From IMG/VR virus record IMGVR_UViG_3300030103_003310, positions 1 through 33,958 of that record: a stretch of 33,958 nt of DNA. One strand, given 5' to 3'. The notes under the pieces are model-generated. The model saw only the letters and a list, made by a program, of their open reading frames with translations. It made no database searches and was not told where the DNA came from. Source of the stretch: a virus. This document shows positions 18,923 through 33,091 of the stretch, piece after piece. The translations under genes were made by a program, and so were the position numbers. Position 1 is the stretch's first letter; the number at the start of each line of letters is the position of its first letter.

Positions 18923-20344
18923 TTACTTGAACAATACGAAATTGTTAGCAGCCAATGTACAAAGAGTACGCTCAGACAAGTAATGAACACGCATTACATC
19001 TTCAGCGCTCGTGAAGTTGCCACCAGCAGAACCAGTAACCCAAGACTTCATACGACGATCTTCGTTAGCATTTGCGCGGTAACGCACGTGCAAGAATGGA
19101 CGAGAAATGTTCTGACCCAATGTTTCGTCATATACAGAAGAAGTACCGGCAGGAACCAATACACCTTCGATACCACCAACGAATCCACGAGTTGTAGAAT
19201 CATTCAAGTATTTCCAGTCAGTTTTGTAGAAGTCGTAAGAACCACGACGGAAACCAGAGAAACCTAAGTTCAATGCCATGTTTTCGTCATTTTCAAACAC
19301 ACCGTAAGAAGTACCACCAGCACCGTAAGAGTTCTGAGCAGCTAGCATGTTGTCAATTTCCAAAGACTTAGCGCGATCTAAGAAAAGCATGTTTTCTTCG
19401 ATAGAACCTTGCTTGTCTAATTCAGCCAATAGGTCGTCGAATTGAGAAAGACCACCAGCGCCGTCGAAGTCAGTACCAGAGTACTGGATACCGCGAGACT
19501 CGATAGCAGCAAATAAACCTTCCATACCTTCGAAACCTGCAGCACCTGCAGAACCTGCACCTGAACCACCAGCTTCAGCTTCAATCATAGCCATTTCAAT
19601 GTGATCCATGAAACGTAGACGAGCTTCGCTTTCAGCCTTCATGTACCACAAGTAACCAGAAGCACCAGCTTCAGTAGTAACTTCGATCCAGCCAATCTGA
19701 GCTAGGTTAGAAGCATCAACGTTGTAGTGGTCACGTAGAATGATCGGCTTGTTGCTGAATGTTTTTACATCCGGCTCAACAGCTTGACCAGGAGCAGAAG
19801 ATGCACCAGAGCCTTTAGCGTACTCAGAACCGAAGATAAACATTTTACAACCAGCTACATCACCTGTTCCAAGAGCAGATGCATCAGTAGCACCGTAAAC
19901 TTCGAAACCGAATGTACCAGCAGAAGTATCAACAGACTTAATGCGTCCTTTTACTTCAGCAGTACCTTTAGTAATGATAATTGTTTGACCAACAGCCAAT
20001 AGGCCAGACTGAGTAGCACCACTTACCGCGCCGTCAGCAGCGATTGTAGCACCGTCAGTAGCGTCTTGATCGTCAACGTCTACAGTTACTGTAAACGCAG
20101 CGTGCAAGCGACCTTGCTCAGACCATACAACGCGGTCAGATTGCAAAGGCATTTCTGCACCTACCATAGATAGGAAACCAGAGATAGTACGCTTACCGAA
20201 GCGCTCTACTTCTTTTTCAAGAACTTCCGGTAACTCGAATGAGTTATCAAAGTTCATAGCGCTAAGGGCGATATAGTTTTCGCCAGTAGCTTGCTTGATA
20301 GGACGTGGAGTTACACCACTAGTCCCAATTGTTAATGTTGCCAT
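18923..20344 (-). CDS. Major capsid protein (HK97-type fold predicted)
   Basis: The 473-residue protein follows the acidic scaffold gene and is closed by a strong terminator, the expected position of the major capsid protein. The N-terminus (ALSAMNFDNSFELPEVLEKE, then VERFGKRTISGFLSMVGAEM) fits an N-arm. A beta-rich block (about residues 85-190) may be an inserted accessory domain. It is followed by a long helix region (GYLWYMKAESEARLRFMDHI, spine-helix-like) and a C-terminal beta-rich P-loop-like portion (RPFLHVRYRANANEDRRMKS). The codons are visibly more GC-rich and more uniform than those of neighbouring genes, consistent with very high expression. It has no protease partner next to it, and cleavage is not evident. 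The HK97 fold is inferred from role and pattern rather than from a matched motif. Confidence 0.82.
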   Translation of the reverse strand: MATLTIGTSGVTPRPIKQATGENYIALSAMNFDNSFELPEVLEKEVERFGKRTISGFLSMVGAEMPLQSDRVVWSEQGRLHAAFTVTVDVDDQDATDGATIAADGAVSGATQSGLLAVGQTIIITKGTAEVKGRIKSVDTSAGTFGFEVYGATDASALGTGDVAGCKMFIFGSEYAKGSGASSAPGQAVEPDVKTFSNKPIILRDHYNVDASNLAQIGWIEVTTEAGASGYLWYMKAESEARLRFMDHIEMAMIEAEAGGSGAGSAGAAGFEGMEGLFAAIESRGIQYSGTDFDGAGGLSQFDDLLAELDKQGSIEENMLFLDRAKSLEIDNMLAAQNSYGAGGTSYGVFENDENMALNLGFSGFRRGSYDFYKTDWKYLNDSTTRGFVGGIEGVLVPAGTSSVYDETLGQNISRPFLHVRYRANANEDRRMKSWVTGSAGGNFTSAEDVMRVHYLSERTLCTLAANNFVLFK

Positions 20345-23988: not shown

Positions 23989-26199
23989 TTATTTTATTAT
24001 TTTTGAAGTGAACCCCTCTTGCTTATAGCGAGCAATATTGAGGTTTAATTTTTGTCTCTGCGTTTTAGCTACTGGTCTATATAAATCTTTATGGCAAGCC
24101 ATAATTGCTAGCCCAGAGCTTATAGCGGCATCAAACTTAGTTCTATTATTTATATCAAACTTAGACCAATCGTTTAGTGTGTCGCTAAAATACATGTTAC
24201 CATAAACTCCTTCAGCAATTTGCCCAACGTGATCGTTAATATACATTTCAATTGCTGCAGCGTGCGCTTGCTTCATATCCATGCTGGAGTTTGGTATACC
24301 ACCAATTTCTTTTTCAGTTACGGAAAGCTTGTTCCATAATCTGTCAGGCCGGTTCATCGAATAACCTCTGTATCCTCTTCTTTTAAAGTGATACAATAAT
24401 CTTGGTTTGTTATTCTCAGCAAGTATTGGCATTCCGTAAAAAACGCACGCCATAAGCACGTCTTCGAAAAATATCTCTGCTGTTTGAGGCCTAGCTATAT
24501 ACTCTAAAAAGAATGAGCTAGGTGGTGCATCTTCCATTGTAAACTTAGTAAGTCCGTGCAATGCACCTTTAGAGCCCCTGCCGTCAGTCGTACCCGATAT
24601 GTCGTAGCTATCACAGCCAAACGCGCCTATATGCTCGTTTGCTGGGTATTTAACTCCGTTTTTAATAATCCACTTGTTTTGTAAGTGAGATCCCGGAATC
24701 CAAGATACTTTAAATCTTCCCTGCGGGCTGGGCATAAAGACTATTTTTGTGTCTTTTACACCGTTTACCCATTGAAAATTACCCTGTGATATAATATTAC
24801 TATTACGCAGATCTTCGTTATAATCAATCTGTTCGTAAATTTTTGCTAAGTTAAATATACTATTTTTTGTTTCATCGCGAAATGCGTGTTCTTCAGTGCG
24901 CGGAAACTGTCTATAGTATTCGTTTAATGCGTCTTGATCTTTTCTTAATCCTTCAACTTCGTTTTCCCAATAATCTATAACGCCCTGTTCAATAACATCG
25001 CCAAAAGGATCCAAAATACTTTCGCTAGGATTGTTAAACACAGGCTGCCCGTATTCATCTATAAATCCTTCGTAGTTCCACTCCATAGGAATAAATAAAG
25101 AATATAAACCAGACTTTGTTTGGCCGTTAGAGTTTCTTTTTGTTACGTCAGAATCAGAATATAGCTTTTTAAAATTATCACCGCCTTTATCTAAAGCATT
25201 TGATGTTGAACCCATCATGCACTTTCCAATAATACGAGAACCAAGTCTTAACGTTGTTTTGGTAACTCTCCAGTTATTGAGGATGTTATCCGGCTTTTCC
25301 CATTTACCGCTTTCGTCATGGACAAGCAGTTTAAGCTTTTCGCCATCGTAAGAGTTGTCACCAGTGTTTTTCCAGTCAATTGTTGTATCAAGTCCTTCAA
25401 GTTCTATTTGTTTTTCTTGTGATTGTATTGACTTTCTAGTAAGCTTTGATGCTGGAACCCTATATGCCAGTTCAGTTTTGGGTCTATCCATACCATCTTG
25501 TATAGGCTTGAAGAAAAAAGGATAGTTAACTGATATTGGCACAACCTTATCGGTAAACATCTTTTTAGCGTCGGAGCCTGTTTTTGATAAGATACCAAAT
25601 CTGGCGTCACTTGATATTGTTGCCATATTGACGGTTTCACCTGATGCCATAAATGAGAATCCACTCCGTCTGTTCTTAAGATAGCACATTCCGTAAGATC
25701 TTCGATCAGCCTTGCACGCTTCCCAAAATATGTAAAACAGCCTATTGGCTTCGCGATAATCGGGGTGTCCGACGTCAATCTTTGACCATTGCAAATACAT
25801 GTAATGAGTACCAGTGATATAAGTAGGTATTCCCTTATTGTAAAACCAATAACCCTGCTCGCGTCTGTTGAATTCTTCATCAATATATGCTTCCCATTTG
25901 CTTTTAAATTCATCAGGATAACTTTGCCAGTCAAATATACTTTTAATATTTTTAAGCTCCTTAGGGTAGTCTGAAACAGTCCACTTGTTTGCGCCTTTGC
26001 TAAGGTTTTTAGGCTGAGGAGGTAAAGCTATGCGTAAATTTTGTATTTCAATAACTTGCCCTATCTGGCCAGTACTGCTAATTACAATAATATCATGCTC
26101 TTTGTTGTACCCATACTCCCAAGACTTAGATCTGTTTAGCCTGTTTATAGTTGTAAGCTTTATTGGCTCTACTACTTTTACTAGATCAGCTTCGTACAT
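23989..26199 (-). CDS. terL: Terminase large subunit
   Basis: The 736-residue protein is the ATP-driven DNA packaging motor and nuclease. An atypical Walker A-like segment, KNRRSGFSF, is at 175-183. Walker B is LLVHDE at 291-296, and a coupling-type motif MGSTSNALDKGG is at 329-340. The C-terminal RNase H-like nuclease is marked by GAFGCDSYDISG (D530, D533), PILAENN (E595) and SSMDMKQAHAA (D641). Linker helices and a roughly 170-residue N-terminal extension make it longer than most terminases of 450-600 residues. The ATG overlaps the stop of the preceding small gene as TAATG, and the portal gene follows after one base. No intein or frameshift. The call is firm; the Walker A variant deserves notice. 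Confidence 0.9.
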   Translation of the reverse strand: MYEADLVKVVEPIKLTTINRLNRSKSWEYGYNKEHDIIVISSTGQIGQVIEIQNLRIALPPQPKNLSKGANKWTVSDYPKELKNIKSIFDWQSYPDEFKSKWEAYIDEEFNRREQGYWFYNKGIPTYITGTHYMYLQWSKIDVGHPDYREANRLFYIFWEACKADRRSYGMCYLKNRRSGFSFMASGETVNMATISSDARFGILSKTGSDAKKMFTDKVVPISVNYPFFFKPIQDGMDRPKTELAYRVPASKLTRKSIQSQEKQIELEGLDTTIDWKNTGDNSYDGEKLKLLVHDESGKWEKPDNILNNWRVTKTTLRLGSRIIGKCMMGSTSNALDKGGDNFKKLYSDSDVTKRNSNGQTKSGLYSLFIPMEWNYEGFIDEYGQPVFNNPSESILDPFGDVIEQGVIDYWENEVEGLRKDQDALNEYYRQFPRTEEHAFRDETKNSIFNLAKIYEQIDYNEDLRNSNIISQGNFQWVNGVKDTKIVFMPSPQGRFKVSWIPGSHLQNKWIIKNGVKYPANEHIGAFGCDSYDISGTTDGRGSKGALHGLTKFTMEDAPPSSFFLEYIARPQTAEIFFEDVLMACVFYGMPILAENNKPRLLYHFKRRGYRGYSMNRPDRLWNKLSVTEKEIGGIPNSSMDMKQAHAAAIEMYINDHVGQIAEGVYGNMYFSDTLNDWSKFDINNRTKFDAAISSGLAIMACHKDLYRPVAKTQRQKLNLNIARYKQEGFTSKIIK

Positions 26200-26477
26200 T
26201 ACCTAGATCTTTTTTCAGCAAACCCAGAAAAGGTTTTCTTTTTTTCCTCTTCTTTTGGTTTGTTTTCTAGAATACGCTCTTCTTCTTCAATACGTGTAAG
26301 TATTTCAAAAGCGTCGAAGATTGCTAGCTTTTTAGTCGCCGCTGCGTTTTTTAATCTATCGGCAGACACATCATCTTCTGTATTAGTTATGATTTTTTCT
26401 TCTGCTACTTTAATTAATTCGTCAACTGCTTTGCGACCAGCTAGGATTATATTCTTCTTCGTCTCCTTGGTATTCAT
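26199..26477 (-). CDS. Small helical protein before terminase, possible small terminase subunit
   Basis: The ATG at 26477 gives 92 residues beginning MNTKETKKNIILAGRKAVDE. A longer reading from 26558 would add 27 residues and overlap the previous gene by 137 bases, so the shorter form is preferred; it still overlaps by 56 bases. The protein is mostly helical and charged, with a conserved-looking block (DRLKNAAATKKLAIFDAFEI) and a Lys/Glu-rich tail. It is translationally coupled to the large terminase by TAATG. Position suggests a small terminase subunit or another DNA-recognition factor, but no helix-turn-helix is clear and the length is short for that role. Confidence 0.55.
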   Translation of the reverse strand: MNTKETKKNIILAGRKAVDELIKVAEEKIITNTEDDVSADRLKNAAATKKLAIFDAFEILTRIEEEERILENKPKEEEKKKTFSGFAEKRSR

Positions 26478-27012
26478 ATTTAATTGTAATTCTTTTAAGA
26501 GGAACTCTATACAGCCTTTCCCCTTCAATATTAAATTCGTATTCACTGCTAGGTGCAAAACCTATAAGGTTTCCTTCATAGCTTTTATCTGAAGAATATT
26601 TAACAATACCTTTCAGAGGCTCTTCGTTTTCTATAGAAAGCTTGCTTTTACTTTTAATAGGCTTTACAAAACAAAACCCGTTAACACACATCCACTCCCC
26701 ACCGCGCTTATAAGCATATACTTGATCAGGTTGTACGAAAAATTGTTTTTCATTATAATATGCTTTACTATTTTTTTCGTTGCCTTTTATATCTCTAAAC
26801 CTTCTAAAAACATTGTGATGAATAATAACTTCATCCCCAACATTTATATCTGTTGGTTCAGCAATAGGTAACGCGGTTACGATACCATGTCTACTAGTGT
26901 ACTGGTGGTTTTGAACTTCTGTATTTAAAAGTAGCTCTTTGCCGTCTATTTCTTTTTTAGATGATGATCTCGAATGTTTCGGAGTCACCATAAAGTTAAA
27001 GACGCTTTTCAT
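26422..27012 (-). CDS. Beta-rich protein with GroES-like segments
   Basis: The 196-residue protein carries two segments that resemble Cpn10 (GroES) strands. One is HGIVTALPIAEPTDINVGDE then VIIHHNVFRR (residues 42-71), reading like the GroES string of a turn, a valine strand, then GD-x-V-I-x-H. The other is KGIVKYSSDKSYEGNLIGFA (residues 134-153), with an ending ERLYRVPLKRITIKYE like the GroES C-terminal strand pair. The middle contains a conserved run (YYNEKQFFVQPDQVYAYKRG) and two Trp-Met-Cys/Phe-Cys cysteines. It starts by a TAATG overlap after a small unknown gene and overlaps the pre-terminase gene by 56 bases. A GroES-fold co-chaperone or a head-assembly beta barrel are both possible. 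The resemblance is by eye and not proven. Confidence 0.5.
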   Translation of the reverse strand: MKSVFNFMVTPKHSRSSSKKEIDGKELLLNTEVQNHQYTSRHGIVTALPIAEPTDINVGDEVIIHHNVFRRFRDIKGNEKNSKAYYNEKQFFVQPDQVYAYKRGGEWMCVNGFCFVKPIKSKSKLSIENEEPLKGIVKYSSDKSYEGNLIGFAPSSEYEFNIEGERLYRVPLKRITIKYEYQGDEEEYNPSWSQSS

Positions 27013-27230
27013 TAGTACTTTAAATCGTATTCAACAGAAACAGCCATGTTTTTATTAAAATCTTTCCAAGGCATAATCTCGTCTGCTTTTTGAATATAGA
27101 TAGAATACTTATCTTCTTCTTCTATAATGTTAACTATAGTATGTCCGCCATATACTTCCTGCCCAACAGAATAGTGCATAGCGTCATTTTTATAGTCCTT
27201 CCCTACGCTTATTTTTCTAATTACTTGCAT
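27012..27230 (-). CDS. Small conserved phage protein of unknown function
   Basis: The ATG at 27230 gives 72 residues (MQVIRKISVGKDYKNDAMHY). An upstream TTG at 27242 would add four residues and is less likely. The chain is predicted to be beta-rich: YSVGQEVYGGHTIVNIIEEE is followed by YSIYIQKADEIMPWKDFNKN, and it ends MAVSVEYDLKY. This ending, with Trp-Lys-x-Phe-Asn before a Val-Ser-Val-Glu-Tyr strand, recurs in small genes upstream of terminase in other marine phages. It overlaps its upstream gene by 14 bases and its stop overlaps the next start as TAATG. No function can be assigned. Confidence 0.6.
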   Translation of the reverse strand: MQVIRKISVGKDYKNDAMHYSVGQEVYGGHTIVNIIEEEDKYSIYIQKADEIMPWKDFNKNMAVSVEYDLKY

Positions 27231-27453
27231 TGGGTAAGTCAACGAGCTCGCCCGTCATTACGTTAATTTCTTTATTACCGTATTTTTTAGATAAGATAGC
27301 TCTTTGCTCTTGCATATCATTAATTAACGATTGTACTTCGTTAATTACATTTTTCTTTTGAATTTCAATGCTGCCTATATTAAATTGGCCTTGGTTAATT
27401 TTATTAACAAGCACCTGCAGGATATCTAATTCTTTTTTTGTTATTTTTTTCAT
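27217..27453 (-). CDS. Small coiled-coil protein of unknown function
   Basis: The 78-residue product is a highly charged helix. KELDILQVLVNKINQGQFNI is followed by GSIEIQKKNVINEVQSLIND and a loop ending in EINVMTGELVDLPNASN. The spacing of Leu, Ile and Val suggests a dimeric coiled coil over residues 5-58. Similar short proteins occur in small-gene clusters upstream of terminase in phages of Bacteroidota. It overlaps the following gene by 14 bases. The preceding 40 bases hold only an A/T-rich leader. No catalytic or DNA-binding motif is visible. Confidence 0.6.
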   Translation of the reverse strand: MKKITKKELDILQVLVNKINQGQFNIGSIEIQKKNVINEVQSLINDMQEQRAILSKKYGNKEINVMTGELVDLPNASN

Positions 27454-27493
27454 TTAATTTTATTTAATTGTTTATGTTAATTATATTTATGCG

Positions 27494-27727
27494 TTATAAT
27501 TGCTCACTCCATTCTTCGCCGTTTAATATAGCAACCATTTCACTTTTACTATATTGTGTTTTTCCATCTAAAAAACTTGGTGTATTACCTTCAAATTTTA
27601 CAAATGTTTTTGAATTATCTAAAGAATATCTTAAAGTGTTTGCTGATGTTTCCTGAACTTGCGCAAAGTCTACATTACCAACTTCCGAAGCTTCTATTAT
27701 TACGTATTTTCTATTTTCGTACGCCAT
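27494..27727 (-). CDS. Small conserved phage protein of unknown function
   Basis: The 77-residue protein opens MAYENRKYVIIEASEVGNVD and continues FAQVQETSANTLRYSLDNSK, TFVKFEGNTPSFLDGKTQYS, then a helical end (KSEMVAILNGEEW). This ordered pattern, with a strand then FxQVxETSxxTLRxSxDxxKTFVK, recurs in short proteins among structural genes of marine phages. It is likely a small structural or accessory protein. The following gap of 40 bases before the next gene is A/T-rich with no clear hairpin. Neighbours on the upstream side are attachment-type proteins. Confidence 0.62.
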   Translation of the reverse strand: MAYENRKYVIIEASEVGNVDFAQVQETSANTLRYSLDNSKTFVKFEGNTPSFLDGKTQYSKSEMVAILNGEEWSEQL

Positions 27728-27738
27728 TATTTTTTATT

Positions 27739-28518
27739 TTAAGATGGCACATTCGTGCTGAAAGCAGGGCCATTAGTTAGAGTAGCTGTGTTTGAATTTG
27801 CAGAGCTGTCTGCCACTGTTGAACCCGAGCCTTCTTCCATTCTCCAATATGCAATTAATCCACTTTCTTCTGTTAAATCTGTTGGAACACCGCTGTTGTA
27901 AAAGTTTTGTATTTCGCTTTGAGTTTTTGTTGAGTTAAATACAGCAATTTCGTCCATCAATCCATCATGAGCATTGCTGCCCAAGTTAGAGCCTATTGAT
28001 AACTTATCAGAATTATTAGCTATTGTAACCCCGCTTCCTTGATCTTCGCTGCTAAATCTAACGCCGTTCATGTACATATTGAACCCGCTAGAAGACATGG
28101 TTACGCCTACGTGAACCCATTGCCCCGTTGGTATTGGACTGGAGCTGTGATTAGCATGCATAAAATTTCCAGGCACTTGAACCTGCAGCCTTGGCCCGTT
28201 GCCGCTGCCGCCGTCTCCAGCGATAGCTATTCCGAAGCCGGAGCTAAAAAGATTAGATCCTTTTCTAAATAAGTCTCTAGCTGTATTAAAAGTTCCAGGT
28301 AGCGTATCAAAGTTAACCCACATACTTACAGTAAGATTTGTTAACCCATCTAAGATAGTAATATCGCCGCAATCTAAAAAATCATTAGTACCGTCAAAGC
28401 TCATAGAAAACGCATTTTCAAATCCGCTTTTTTGGCGATGAAAAATTATTCGGCGAAGCGCGATTCGTTCGTCAAGCCCAATTCCGTGAGTGCTAATTCC
28501 GTCGTGAACATTTGCCAT
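27739..28518 (-). CDS. LamG/concanavalin A-like domain protein, putative receptor-binding or decoration protein
   Basis: In this 259-residue protein, residues about 37-215 form a LamG (LamG_3-like) jelly-roll domain. FSMSFDGTNDFLDCGD and LTNLTVSMWVNFDT mark the first strands, followed by GQWVHVGVTMSSSGFNMYMN, and HDGLMDEIAVFNSTKTQSEI with NFYNSG close the domain. A further YWRMEEGSGSTVADSS block (about residues 226-241) resembles the start of another LamG unit. The N-terminal 35 residues are probably an attachment segment. LamG domains bind carbohydrates or proteins, and phages often carry them on fibers or capsid decoration. No signal peptide. The domain call is strong; its location on the virion is inferred from neighbouring small structural genes. 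Confidence 0.8.
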   Translation of the reverse strand: MANVHDGISTHGIGLDERIALRRIIFHRQKSGFENAFSMSFDGTNDFLDCGDITILDGLTNLTVSMWVNFDTLPGTFNTARDLFRKGSNLFSSGFGIAIAGDGGSGNGPRLQVQVPGNFMHANHSSSPIPTGQWVHVGVTMSSSGFNMYMNGVRFSSEDQGSGVTIANNSDKLSIGSNLGSNAHDGLMDEIAVFNSTKTQSEIQNFYNSGVPTDLTEESGLIAYWRMEEGSGSTVADSSANSNTATLTNGPAFSTNVPS

Positions 28519-29542: not shown

Positions 29543-29836
29543 CTATCCTATTTTTAAAATATCAGTCGCGGTTGTTCCTGTGCTTACCAGGTAGTCTACA
29601 GCAATAGGTAAAAAAGTTCCAGCCGGCACTCCTTTAAATATTACGTCAACATCATTAGCACCTAAGTTTGTAGCGCCACCGCTTATATCTAGTACGCCCG
29701 CCATTACAACAGCTACATCGCCGGCGCCTCCCACATATAGAGAAGAACCCGCTAAATTTGTAGCAGCTGAAAAAGTATCGCTTTTAGTTATAGCAACCGC
29801 ATCTGTTGCAAAACCTGTAGTTGTTATATTCGCCAT
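29543..29836 (-). CDS. Small beta-rich virion protein
   Basis: The 97-residue protein reads AVAITKSDTFSAATNLAGSS then LYVGGAGDVAVVMAG and ends VIFKGVPAGTFLPIAVDYLV and STGTTATDILKIG. The combination LYVGGAGDVAV, G-V-P-A-G-T-x-L-P-I and S-T-G-T-T-A-T-x-I is a recognisable signature of short structural proteins in tailed phages, often near fiber or spike genes. Secondary structure is all beta. It is probably a decoration or spike-base protein exposed on the virion. The following 44-residue gene starts immediately after its stop. Confidence 0.68.
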   Translation of the reverse strand: MANITTTGFATDAVAITKSDTFSAATNLAGSSLYVGGAGDVAVVMAGVLDISGGATNLGANDVDVIFKGVPAGTFLPIAVDYLVSTGTTATDILKIG

Positions 29837-29857
29837 TTTATATTTTTATTTTTTTAA

Positions 29858-30214
29858 TTAACAGTTCCATCTGCGGCGTGCCGCACGGCCTCGCTCGCTT
29901 GTCCAGCTTTTAGAACGCGCACAAAAAGCTTTGCGGCGCTTAGCAGCTTTACCACCCGGTTTTAACTTTTTAGGGTCTTTAGTAACAGCGGTTTTTAATT
30001 TACTACCAGGATTGTCTTTTCTATATTTTTCTACTCCCGCTTTCGTCATACCTCCCCCGGCTGCGGCACCCGTACCTGTTGGGTTTGCTTTATTATAATA
30101 GCCTAAAGATTTTTTACGTGACGGAGCATCGCCTTTCTTTTTAGCCGGTGAATCTGGGCACGGGCAATCTTTTGCTCTTCCCGATGCTTTTTTAGTTATA
30201 GGTGCGCCGTACAT
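29858..30214 (-). CDS. Basic cysteine-containing protein, DUF6321-like
   Basis: The 118-residue product is strongly basic (many Lys and Arg). It carries a Cys-Pro-Cys-Pro motif near residues 17-20, a GYYNKANPTGTGAAAGGGMT then KAGVEKYRKDNPGSKLKTAV core, and ends in FCARSKSWTSERGRAARRRW followed by Asn-Cys. This core and Cys-terminated tail match small phage proteins of the DUF6321 type that are common in marine phages. Four cysteines in pairs near the two ends could bind metal or form disulfides. High positive charge suggests DNA contact inside the head. It precedes a group of virion proteins. The family is recognised from memory of its motif, and function is unknown. Confidence 0.62.
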   Translation of the reverse strand: MYGAPITKKASGRAKDCPCPDSPAKKKGDAPSRKKSLGYYNKANPTGTGAAAGGGMTKAGVEKYRKDNPGSKLKTAVTKDPKKLKPGGKAAKRRKAFCARSKSWTSERGRAARRRWNC

Positions 30215-30217
30215 AAT

Positions 30218-30574
30218 TTATTTTTTAGTTTTATTATACGCTTCTTTTTCCCAGGGTAAGTTTTTAGCCCCCTCCATCATATCAGCTCTTTTATAAACTC
30301 TAGCCGGTGATTTAGTGTTAGGCTTCCATGTAACAGTTTCGTTATTATAATCCAAACGCCCCTGCTTCATTTGATCTAAATGCACTTTTTCGTGTTCTAC
30401 CGCTGAATTTATTTCTTTTTGCGATAAACTTTTATCCACGAATATAGTTCCATCTCTGTTAGCTTCTCCCATCACACCTGGCTCTAAGTCTTTTTCAAAT
30501 ACCGGTGTTCCATATTCTGAAGCTTCTTCGTTTATACCAAATACCTCCGCTATTTTTTTAAGCTTAAATGCCAT
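30218..30574 (-). CDS. Small zincin-like protein with HEKVH motif
   Basis: The 118-residue protein contains INSAVEHEKVHLDQMKQGRL (about residues 56-75), with an HExxH zinc-binding motif. About 40 residues later comes LPWEKEAYNKT, a likely third ligand (Glu). This is the minimal gluzincin-type layout. The N-terminal part carries AEVFGINEEASEYGTPVFEK and a hairpin (GTIFVDKSLSQ) before the active-site helix. The short length suggests a bare catalytic core. Substrates are unknown; head-maturation or host targets are both possible. It overlaps the upstream winged-helix gene as TAATG and is followed three bases later by the basic Cys-containing protein. Zinc binding is likely; proteolysis is inferred. 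Confidence 0.6.
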   Translation of the reverse strand: MAFKLKKIAEVFGINEEASEYGTPVFEKDLEPGVMGEANRDGTIFVDKSLSQKEINSAVEHEKVHLDQMKQGRLDYNNETVTWKPNTKSPARVYKRADMMEGAKNLPWEKEAYNKTKK

Positions 30575-31014
30575 TATCTATCTTTGTCTTTAATCATATC
30601 GTCTATAGCTTTATTATAAACTTTATCACTATATGATTTATTTTTGTAAAATTTACTTGACGGCCCAATTGGCAAATCTTCATGCCCTAGCATTACATTG
30701 TACATACGGGTGATCAACCGCTTCCCCTTAGGCGACACTTTAAAAACACTATATTTAATTGTAGTTCTATTTCTATGCCTCCAAGTATCTATCCAGCCGT
30801 TTCTTCTTAAGCGTTCCCAGCGGTTTTTATCCCAAGCGTATGTGTACGTGCCGTTAATAAAATCATCACGTGTAAAACGGCCTTTACAATCTAAATATAT
30901 AAGCAACTCTAGGTCTGCGTCTAAAATATCATAGGTTTTGCTAGCCCACTTGCGAACAAGCCTATAATACTTGAATAAATTTATATCTCGTAGATCGTCG
31001 GGCGTTAGCCTCAT
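30574..31014 (-). CDS. Winged-helix (MarR-like) DNA-binding protein
   Basis: From the ATG at 31014, which overlaps the stop of the co-chaperonin gene as ATGA, the product has 146 residues. A longer start at 31068 would add 18 Arg-rich residues inside the previous gene and is less likely. A helical array (TYDILDADLELLIYLDCKGR then FTRDDFINGTYTYAWDKNRW) leads to RLRRNGWIDTWRHRNRTTIK and YSVFKVSPKGKRLITRMYN. That is a recognition helix, a beta hairpin wing and a final helix, as in MarR-type winged helices. It is basic overall. It may be a late transcription regulator or a DNA-binding structural factor. The fold is fairly confident; target sites are unknown. Confidence 0.65.
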   Translation of the reverse strand: MRLTPDDLRDINLFKYYRLVRKWASKTYDILDADLELLIYLDCKGRFTRDDFINGTYTYAWDKNRWERLRRNGWIDTWRHRNRTTIKYSVFKVSPKGKRLITRMYNVMLGHEDLPIGPSSKFYKNKSYSDKVYNKAIDDMIKDKDR

Positions 31015-31268
31015 TCTACAATAACAACGTCGCCGAGATTGATAACGTGATACAACTCGTCGTTCCATTCGATACCGTGGCCAGCGTGTCTATCATAGCG
31101 AATAATATTTCCAGCCTCTATGCCTTCTACTTTATCGCCAACAGTAACAACCTCTGCCTTTAGGTACCTAACGTCTTTATTTTGTTCTTCAGTGAGCTCT
31201 AAACCGCCTACTTTCTTCGGCGCTTCTTTTATCTTGCGGATGACTATAAAATAATTAATTGCCTTCAT
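31011..31268 (-). CDS. groES-like: GroES-like co-chaperonin (Cpn10)
   Basis: The 85-residue protein has the GroES layout. An N-terminal strand (INYFIVIRKIKEAPKKV, residues 4-20) leads into a mobile-loop-like GGLEL at 21-25. The core AEVVTVGDKVEGIEAGNIIR follows, then YDRHAGHGIEWNDELYHVIN and the final strand LGDVVIVE. In E. coli GroES the loop tripeptide that docks on GroEL is Ile-Val-Leu after Gly-Gly; here it is Leu-Glu-Leu, with a charged middle residue. It lies one gene downstream of the GroEL-type gene, the reverse of the bacterial groES-groEL order. It overlaps the preceding gene by 14 bases and the winged-helix gene by four. It probably caps the phage GroEL or modifies the host one. 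Strong fold call. Confidence 0.85.
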   Translation of the reverse strand: MKAINYFIVIRKIKEAPKKVGGLELTEEQNKDVRYLKAEVVTVGDKVEGIEAGNIIRYDRHAGHGIEWNDELYHVINLGDVVIVE

Positions 31269-31536
31269 GCTGCTTCTTTAATTGTTGTTTAGCCATTTTC
31301 GCAAGTCTAGCCTGCTCCATCTTACCCATAACCTTAGCTCTTTGTTCTAGAACAGTTAATATCTGTATCTTACGGGCATAAGGCTTATTTATCTTTTTTA
31401 CTTTGGCTATTGTTCTTTTAGCATCCGCAACTGTAGCAAATTTAATGCTTACAGTATCTTTAGGGTTCTCGTCTGTATATAAACGTCTACCGCTTCCTTT
31501 AGGCTTTTTGCCTGTGCCTTCTTTAGGATCCGCCAT
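31255..31536 (-). CDS. Small basic helical protein between chaperonin genes
   Basis: The ATG at 31536 gives 93 residues (MADPKEGTGKKPKGSGRRLY). A TTG six bases upstream is a less likely start. A conserved-looking segment, TDENPKDTVSIKFATVADAK followed by RTIAKVKKINKPYARKIQIL, recurs in small proteins of marine phages. The C-terminus is Lys/Gln-rich helix (ARLAKMAKQQLKKQHEGN). It overlaps the chaperonin gene by 14 bases and the GroES-like gene by 14 bases, so all three are probably co-translated. There is no enzymatic motif. The high charge fits nucleic-acid or acidic-protein binding. A link to the chaperone module is suggested only by position. Confidence 0.6.
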   Translation of the reverse strand: MADPKEGTGKKPKGSGRRLYTDENPKDTVSIKFATVADAKRTIAKVKKINKPYARKIQILTVLEQRAKVMGKMEQARLAKMAKQQLKKQHEGN

Positions 31537-33091
31537 TTTCAATACGCTTATTAGAAATTATACAATCTGCAGACATAATAGTTGTGGCTACGCTTACCGC
31601 ATTTTTAAGCGCCGTTTTGGTTACAAGCACTGGATCTATAATACCAGCATCTACCATATTAACGCGCTCACCTGTTTTTGCATCTATACCATCGCCCACT
31701 TTCGCAATAGGGCTTGTAATTAAAATACCAGCGTTTTCCATAATGGTATTAAAAGGCGCACGAATTGCTGAAAGCAATATGTTCCATCCAAGGCCTTCGG
31801 ATTTTATATTTTGAGATGCATGAAGTAAAGCAGCACCGCCGCCTGAAACAATACCTTCTTTTAGCGCTGCCTGCACAGCGTAGATAGCATCTTCAACTCG
31901 GTCTTTCTTTTCTTTTAACTCTACCTGCGAGTCGGCCCCTACATATACAATTCCGACACTGCCGGATAACATAGATAATCTTTGCTCAAGCTTTGCTTTA
32001 AAGAAACCGTTTGTTTCTTCTCCAATTCTTTTACGCACGTCTTCGATGCGGTCTTGCAACGCTTCACGATTAACATCTGTTTGCAAAACTGTATTTTTAT
32101 TGTTGGTTACTGCTTTTATAGCGGAGCCTAAAACGGAGGGGTCGATCAGGTCTAAATCATCGCCCAGCTGCTCATTAATAATTGTAGCCCCTGTTAGTAG
32201 AGCTAAATCTTCTATGGTGTCCTGTTTCGTAGGCCCAAACCCAGGCAAGTCAATAATATTAACCTTAATGTTGCCTTTTACTTTATTAGCAATTAATGTT
32301 TGATATGGTTGTTGCTCCATATCCGCTATAATAAGCAGAGATCTATTGTATTTAATAGCGTACTCTAATATCGACTGTATGCGTCTAATATTAGGTATTG
32401 GCGAAGTTACAATTAATACTAATGGATTTTCTAACTCTGCAATGTCTTTATCTTTGTTTGTTAAAAGATGTGTAGACTTTATGCCAGAATCAAATTGTGT
32501 GCCCTCAACAAAATCAACATAAGTTTCATTCGTATCGGACTCCTCCATTAAAACGATACCATCTTGTCCAGCCTTACTGAAAGCTTCACTAATCCTGTCT
32601 CCAAGCTCTTTGTCGTTGTTGCAGCTAATGTATGCAACTTGCTGCAACATTTGATCAGCAACCGGAATACTGGAATCAGTAAGATATACGCTGATTTTCT
32701 TAGCACAATTCTCAATGCCTTCTTTAATGCTTCTAACTTCTGCTTCATTTTCTACTTTGTTATACTCTGTTAAAATAGCATGAGCAAGCACGGTAGCCGT
32801 TGTGGTACCGTCGCCTGCTTCACGCACTGTATTAGCTGCCGCCTCTTTTATAAGAGTTGCACCTATATTCTCGACCGGATCATATAAGACTACGCTTTCC
32901 GCTACGGTTACACCATCTTTTGTGATGACCGGCCGGCCCAAGGCGTCTTCGTAGATTACGCATTTACCAGAAGCCCCCAATGTGGACTTCACTGCGTCTG
33001 TCAACTTATTGACGCCGGACATAATTTTCGTATTGGCTGTATTGCCAAACGTAAGATCTTTAACGATCTCGCTGGGATTATTATATTGCAT
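31523..33091 (-). CDS. groEL-like: GroEL-type chaperonin (Hsp60), phage-encoded
   Basis: A full-length 522-residue group I chaperonin, the ATP-driven folding cage. The equatorial domain shows DLTFGNTANTKIMSGVNKLT, TLGASGK (38-43), DGVTV, the ATP-site aspartate equivalents D71 and D94 (GDGTTTATVL, 93-102), and D401 in VEDAIYAVQ, equivalent to GroEL D398. LPGFGPTKQDTIEDLALLTG (282-301) lies in the apical domain, and EGIVSGGGAALL and DAGIIDPVLVTKTALKNAVS return to the equatorial domain. The GGM-repeat tail of bacterial GroEL is absent, as it ends RIENGGS. Several apical substrate and GroES-binding residues differ (see findings). It is preceded by a 94-residue unknown and followed by a GroES-like gene one position on. 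Not a host gene in its context, since all neighbours are phage genes. The family call is certain by eye. Confidence 0.95.
   Translation of the reverse strand: MQYNNPSEIVKDLTFGNTANTKIMSGVNKLTDAVKSTLGASGKCVIYEDALGRPVITKDGVTVAESVVLYDPVENIGATLIKEAAANTVREAGDGTTTATVLAHAILTEYNKVENEAEVRSIKEGIENCAKKISVYLTDSSIPVADQMLQQVAYISCNNDKELGDRISEAFSKAGQDGIVLMEESDTNETYVDFVEGTQFDSGIKSTHLLTNKDKDIAELENPLVLIVTSPIPNIRRIQSILEYAIKYNRSLLIIADMEQQPYQTLIANKVKGNIKVNIIDLPGFGPTKQDTIEDLALLTGATIINEQLGDDLDLIDPSVLGSAIKAVTNNKNTVLQTDVNREALQDRIEDVRKRIGEETNGFFKAKLEQRLSMLSGSVGIVYVGADSQVELKEKKDRVEDAIYAVQAALKEGIVSGGGAALLHASQNIKSEGLGWNILLSAIRAPFNTIMENAGILITSPIAKVGDGIDAKTGERVNMVDAGIIDPVLVTKTALKNAVSVATTIMSADCIISNKRIENGGS

Follow-up and report, generated by a model that had tools for sequence, protein, structure and literature searches.

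Does a phage that encodes both a chaperonin and its lid build a folding cage of its own, and which proteins would that cage serve? The question is raised by a 33,958-base virus record (IMG/VR IMGVR_UViG_3300030103_003310, positions 1-33,958; this whole stretch is referred to as the window), in whose structural-gene region a sequence-only reading had located a full-length group I chaperonin, GroEL, together with a GroES-like co-chaperonin. Both genes proved to be real and intact, and we identified a second, tandem GroES-like co-chaperonin that had been overlooked. We believe, with a probability of roughly 60% for the explanation as a whole, that the three proteins constitute a phage-evolved cage, private to the phage, in which virion proteins are folded: a GroEL ring that evolved within phages, a single-domain GroES coupled to it by gene overlap and a Cpn20-like tandem co-chaperonin encoded among the packaging genes. 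In such a module, GroEL would bind ATP and, as clients, virion proteins of the phage, of which the 50-kDa candidate capsid protein is the likeliest, and the lid would be made of seven domains, contributed by GroES alone or by GroES mixed with the tandem protein. The closed cage would be adapted to phage clients by having no Gly-Met tails inside and a short roof, and the L-E-L lid loop and the Q234 change in GroEL would make ring and lid a private pair with limited exchange with host GroEL and GroES.

The groEL gene (31523-33091, minus strand) encodes 522 amino acids and matches the Pfam family Cpn60_TCP1 over profile positions 1-489 of 490 (E-value 1.4e-55; 189 bits versus a cut-off of 34.3), phrog_5725 ('chaperonin groEL', 4.5e-136) and NCBIfam model NF000592 (465 versus 397). 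With a full-length Cpn60 domain above curated cut-offs, the protein is a Group I chaperonin (GroEL/Cpn60), albeit a divergent one, as it falls below the cut-off of the equivalog TIGR02348 (456.5 versus 582.1). The groES gene (31011-31268, minus strand) encodes a single-domain protein of 85 amino acids with matches to Pfam Cpn10 (2.3e-6; 28 bits versus a cut-off of 21.1) and phrog_3188 ('co-chaperonin GroES', 2e-10), the NCBIfam cut-offs not being reached. Compared with three near relatives, groEL shows a ratio of nonsynonymous to synonymous substitution rates (dN/dS) of 0.06-0.08 at dS values of 1.4-1.8, which are near saturation, indicating a gene under constraint rather than a chance reading frame; for groES and the second co-chaperonin dS is saturated.

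As viral relatives we used the best 80 of at least 599 matching IMG/VR stretches; counts out of 81 comprise these and the window, and searches of whole records covered 50 of the 80. In all 80 relatives groEL is directly followed by groES on its own strand, with a spacing of -28 to 0 nucleotides and no intervening gene, and hidden Markov models (HMMs) detected one GroEL and one GroES each in the relatives, the window and three named phages. The same pair is annotated by name in the GenBank records of the Flavobacterium elemo phages (Elemovirus) and Caudoviricetes sp. ctfjg026 (MW202828), and groES precedes groEL in phi38:1, Calle and immuto. The pair and its order, both of which had been regarded as unusual, are thus a normal and known trait of this phage group. 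GroEL was reported in 36 of 78 environmental 'group 2' genomes (Nishimura et al. 2017, PMC5332604), putative marine Flavobacteriaceae phages related to phi38:1 that share GroEL with the window; the available text of that paper does not treat GroES or a tandem co-chaperonin. GroEL and GroES are also described for the Maribacter phage Panino (PMC11590407) and for Southern Ocean viruses (PMC8407431). Mass spectrometry of phi38:1-infected cells lists GroEL among the methylated phage proteins, indicating that the GroEL of this relative is expressed, and a second table, seemingly for free virions of phi38:1, lists it as well (PMC13288928). A study of Baltic Flavobacterium phages (PMC7077304) contains no mention of chaperonin terms, GroEL, GroES or elemo.

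An alternative origin and role would be that of a recently captured host chaperonin, an auxiliary gene raising the folding capacity of the host in the cold rather than serving morphogenesis, and cold adaptation has indeed been proposed for viral GroEL/GroES of the Southern Ocean (PMC8407431). The phylogeny that had been suggested as a check argues otherwise. In a careful tree (LG+C20; 44 of 62 rows, with L188, from a metagenome-assembled genome (MAG), and 17 further rows left out), 25 phage-type rows, including MAG contigs, elemo, ctfjg026 and phi38:1, are split from 14 bacterial and 5 other phage GroELs with a support of 100/97.9. The rows of elemo, ctfjg026 and phi38:1 are long-branched and their relative order is uncertain; in a quick tree L188 had grouped with the phages. 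Ordinary Bacteroidota GroELs reach at most 44% identity to the window GroEL among the matches listed. This GroEL also occurs in seven MAG contigs spread over unrelated taxa (L167-L173, labelled Maricaulis, Alphaproteobacteria, Sphingobacteriales, Euryarchaeota, Flavobacteriaceae, Rickettsiales and Aliivibrio), in six of which groES adjoins it. Since five of six of those genomes also hold a GroEL at 37-43% identity, the contigs are most likely binned phage DNA, that is, contamination. Judged by these comparisons, the window GroEL is not a recent capture from the bacteria sampled, and we consider the host-derived auxiliary gene highly improbable.

The phage-evolved GroEL has kept the residues expected of an ATPase: T30, G32, K51, D52, D87, T89-91, D398, G415 and D495 are identical in 81/81 sequences, so that D52, D87 and D398 as well as the nucleotide-site residues of a Group I chaperonin, P33 excepted, are in place. 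A Gly-Met-rich C-terminal tail is common in bacterial GroEL, if not strictly defining; a GGM tail is present in all 20 bacteria compared versus none of the 81 members of the phage clade. Furthermore, R197 is S, A or C and L234 is Q in all 81, Y203 is H in 77, and the inter-ring positions 109, 452, 461 and 464 vary in the phage clade, being conserved or nearly so in the 20 bacteria. The roles we give to these residues are presumed from E. coli GroEL, with the exception of the R197-E386 pair. The loss of R197 and the variable inter-ring positions would suit a chaperonin that works like those of phages EL, OBP and AR9, which also encode GroEL-like rings, as rings, open or single, that keep proteins from aggregating and have no closed lid; OBP, as implied in PMC9598537, lacks the R197-E386 pair as well. 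These three are, however, described as independent of a co-chaperonin and lid-free (PMC9598537; for EL with E. coli GroES, PMC7185714), whereas here a conserved groES adjoins groEL in every relative and presents a matched interface. A lid-free mode of action is therefore quite improbable in our view. Group I chaperonins form a heptameric double ring closed by a co-chaperonin; the window has the partner gene, its inter-ring positions are not conserved, and the number of rings in the proposed closed cage is likewise presumed.

The matched interface consists of two changes. The middle residue of the tripeptide in the GroES mobile loop is E in 81/81 (L-E-L, compared with I-V-L in bacteria), and it is accompanied by Q234 in GroEL, whereas a hydrophobic tripeptide and L or I at position 234 are found in 21/21 comparators (phage immuto and 20 bacteria). 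The loops of elemo, ctfjg026 and phi38:1 carry different tripeptides again, and these phages lack Q234. This joint change suggests a private pair whose members would not be freely exchanged with those of the host. The predicted GroES is a beta-barrel with a mobile loop (GGLEL) and matches Cpn10 structures with a best Z of 11.8 and a root-mean-square deviation (rmsd) of 1.2-1.3 over 64-75 residues. Its roof segment is short: 8 residues in 77 of 84 phage GroES proteins and 9 in five, with two unmatched, compared with 12 residues in 24, 16-17 in eight and no match in five of 37 comparator proteins, phage immuto included (37 of 38 comparator loci yielded a GroES). A 'roofless GroES' as a clean trait was rejected, roofs being short in many comparator proteins too.

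What such a cage would fold is best approached from T4, whose co-chaperonin gp31, a protein without roof loops, serves the capsid protein gp23 (PMC6318259). The window GroES matches the fold of gp31 with Z of 9.6-10.2; gp31 uses the host GroEL and has a longer loop, whereas the window phage encodes its own ring. If the analogy with gp31, which replaces GroES to fold gp23, holds, the most likely role of the phage cage would be the folding of virion proteins, with the 50.4-kDa candidate major capsid protein as natural client (18923-20344, minus strand; 473 amino acids; phrog_13704, 1.3e-92, a family named only 'virion structural protein'). Proteins of 2741 and 1543 amino acids would, by their size, be too large for enclosure, contrary to the earlier guess that the system could serve the very large tail and internal proteins.

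The second co-chaperonin lies beside the terminase gene (26422-27012, minus strand) and has 196 amino acids with two predicted GroES-like domains (about 1-105 and 106-180); the open reading frame matches phrog_13932 ('co-chaperonin GroES', 5.7e-15). In an AlphaFold2 model built from 29 sequences (predicted local distance difference test, pLDDT, 81.2; predicted template modelling score, pTM, 0.72), the best full-length PDB match is the Cpn20 chain 7ekq_R (Foldseek E 8.7e-5, 200 columns, template modelling (TM) score 0.54; Z 9.8, rmsd 3.7 over 151 residues), and its two parts, 1-103 and 106-180, both resemble individual GroES chains with Z up to 8.0 and 7.6, values that are modest alone. Among predicted viral proteins the best named match of the model is 'Chaperonin cpn10' of phi18:3, over 196 columns. 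At the sequence level, the phage GroES profile matches the N-terminal half (hhalign probability 77, E 2e-5), and a bridging homologue is provided by gp096 of the Cellulophaga phage phi13:2 (L228), whose C-terminal half matches Pfam Cpn10 above the cut-off (1.4e-7) and whose N-terminal half matches the window family (7.7e-9). The two-domain make-up, which is not evident from the window protein's sequence by itself, thus rests on the predicted fold and on phi13:2 gp096, and the model points to a tandem protein of two GroES domains with chloroplast Cpn20 as its closest known fold.

Chloroplast Cpn20 likewise consists of two head-to-tail GroES-like domains and stands beside a single-domain Cpn10, with which it makes mixed lids (PMC5780408). 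Cpn20 is a plastid rather than a phage protein and has no sequence match to the window tandem protein, for which a search of PDB chains at E up to 10 returned none; the tandem duplication may be independent of that in plastids. A literature search, judged by titles and the beginnings of abstracts, found no tandem or Cpn20-like phage co-chaperonin. It is tempting to extend the parallel to a viral counterpart of the chloroplast system: GroES and the tandem protein would together supply the seven domains of a mixed lid, the E/Q interface would keep this lid orthogonal to the host, and the packaging-linked tandem subunit would shift lid composition late in infection for capsid clients. Tandem GroES proteins would in that case occur outside plastids as well, but we regard this extended parallel as tentative and doubtful.

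Relatives of the tandem protein were found in 77 phage records; among the 20 listed, the annotation is cpn10 or GroES for 19 and hypothetical for one. The only one of 296 Bacteroidota genomes that contained it was the seed MAG (G004), in which copies of phage-type groEL are present too. Of the contigs found by the tandem protein, the best 80 of 594 viral contigs, 25 extend 5 kb or more upstream of it; 21 of these have GroEL in the locus, and one more (L257) carries it farther along the contig. Eighteen tandem contigs were searched whole: nine have GroEL, six end within 5 kb upstream of the tandem gene and three have 5.3-8.9 kb lacking GroEL.

Nevertheless, several observations weigh against the proposed module. 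For this phage itself the module is read from its genes, and expression, assembly and activity are presumed. P33 of the nucleotide loop is A in 81/81 sequences, and the interface changes count as a single event, since all come from one clade; part of the shortness of the roof may be inherited, because many comparators have only 12 residues. As regards the tandem protein, Z values near 8 may reflect common arrangements (unrelated oxidoreductases reach 5.6), hhalign gave no significant link of the C-terminal half to phage GroES or between the two halves, and Pfam Cpn10 is matched by one of 29 tandem proteins of the window family, at an E-value of only 0.083. Moreover, phi13:2 encodes short and long co-chaperonins (30087-30335 and 40708-41310) and no GroEL detectable by HMM, so its co-chaperonins must use the host ring or act otherwise.

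An alternative is that GroEL and GroES form a working cage and the tandem protein is a GroES-fold factor of virion assembly or packaging that no longer binds any chaperonin. In the window, ctfjg026, elemo and phi38:1 its gene lies near the terminase and at a distance from groEL, phi13:2 keeps a homologue in the absence of GroEL, and by eye the C-terminal half has no clear mobile loop with a GG-hydrophobic motif. The N-terminal half, however, keeps a loop-like segment (consensus ELILNTE/ELLLNTE), the full-length fold is closest to Cpn20, and of the 50 relatives' records searched, 45 contain the gene together with GroEL. We hold such a loss of chaperonin binding to be unlikely, and favour a tandem protein that still belongs to the folding cage.

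The Cellulophaga phages phi38:1 and Calle (Callevirus, Pervagoviridae) resemble the window in having GroEL, Cpn10 and a long GroES-like protein, which precedes the terminase in phi38:1, and 'Chaperonin cpn10' is given as a core protein of Pervagoviridae (PMC8776804). Similarly, elemo and ctfjg026 share with the window the terminase family, overlapping groEL and groES genes and a second GroES-like gene near the terminase, although the elemo GroEL is only 37% identical to that of the window. The tandem, lid-like protein resembles a known plastid type and the GroEL-GroES pair was already known for the phage group. The bench-studied phage chaperonins of EL, OBP and AR9 are described as lid-free and T4 brings a lid only, whereas the phage group of the window brings both and adds a two-domain, lid-like protein. 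If functional, this would be a small system in which to study the matching of cage size and lid pairing to a viral capsid protein, and a test case for the mixing of tandem and single-domain GroES on a seven-fold ring; relatives have been isolated (elemo, phi38:1, Calle, Panino), making the system testable.

In the window, groEL and groES are separated by a small basic gene (31255-31536, minus strand; 93 amino acids, isoelectric point 10.4), for which an ATG start at 31536 is more plausible than a TTG at 31542. The short overlaps reported earlier are present: the ATG of the small gene lies within the last 14 bases of groEL and the ATG of groES within the last 14 bases of the small gene, and groES overlaps the next gene by 4 nucleotides (ATGA, 31014-31011). 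As a component of the chaperonin system, the role first ascribed to it, the small gene was rejected: it is absent from the junction in all 80 relatives, standing between groEL and groES in this contig only, and unrelated marine phages carry it as an accessory gene. Its product has many relatives in viral contigs, with identities of 74-93% (best 80 of at least 598), and these include Pelagibacter phage HTVC033P, with weaker matches in cyanophages; no family in Pfam, PHROGs or NCBIfam was matched above a curated cut-off or better than chance. The gene is present in one of the 50 whole records of groEL relatives, outside the groEL-groES junction, and groEL and groES lie within 6 kb of it in two of 80 loci, in both of which it is upstream of groEL. 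These two loci carry a longer version (L085, 5824-6291; L089, 2052-2516; 154-155 amino acids, extended at the N-terminus), which lies upstream of groEL-groES by about 1.5 kb. Being common in unrelated marine phages and absent from the junction in relatives, it is most likely a mobile accessory gene outside the chaperonin system.

The gene is probably a recent mobile insertion that preserved coupling. A 14-nucleotide ATG...TAA overlap was kept, like the groEL/groES overlap in three relatives (L002, L003 and L009), and translational coupling, and with it co-expression of groEL and groES, may therefore persist. Exact matching found neither junction pattern of the insertion in other viral contigs, a set that may lack the closest records to the window, and a contig of seemingly the same phage (L233) stops short of the junction. 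An assembly chimera could also be the source of the insertion, but its frames and overlaps are intact. In elemo and ctfjg026 no gene lies between groEL and groES; phi38:1 and Calle differ from the window in having the order groES, small gene, groEL. That 90-amino-acid gene of phi38:1 was rejected as a homologue, phmmer with the small protein giving no match at E up to 10 and the gene itself no PHROG match.

The terminase large subunit (23989-26199, minus strand) groups the phage with elemo, ctfjg026 and phi38:1. With the terminase of ctfjg026, a spring-water record, it shares 65.8% identity, and with those of the elemo phages 46.8%, the corresponding values for the portal being 55.0% and 41.9%; by these identities the phage belongs with Flavobacteriaceae podoviruses, and its habitat, judged from its relatives, is probably marine. 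Scans for promoters and terminators gave chance-level results only. The gene after groES (30574-31014, minus strand; phrog_17028, 3.6e-6), which starts at the ATGA within the groES stop, has no assigned function; the following one (30218-30574, minus strand), two genes downstream of groES, has weak metalloprotease-like matches (phrog_87, 2.6e-5; DUF6782, 0.016). At 29858-30214 (minus strand) lies a gene for a Pfam DUF6321 protein (5.2e-9) with a basic, Cys-bearing C-terminus, which matches the C-terminal end of phrog_10346. A 259-amino-acid protein encoded at 27739-28518 (minus strand) matches several phage PHROGs (phrog_347, 4.5e-13; phrog_8510, 3e-11) and has what we take to be a resemblance to a LamG-type surface module. 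Contig L233 is about 99% identical to the window at 24338-27506 and 29543-30008, and between these blocks it has about 1.1 kb of unmatched sequence, compared with about 2.0 kb in the window, marking a variable region.

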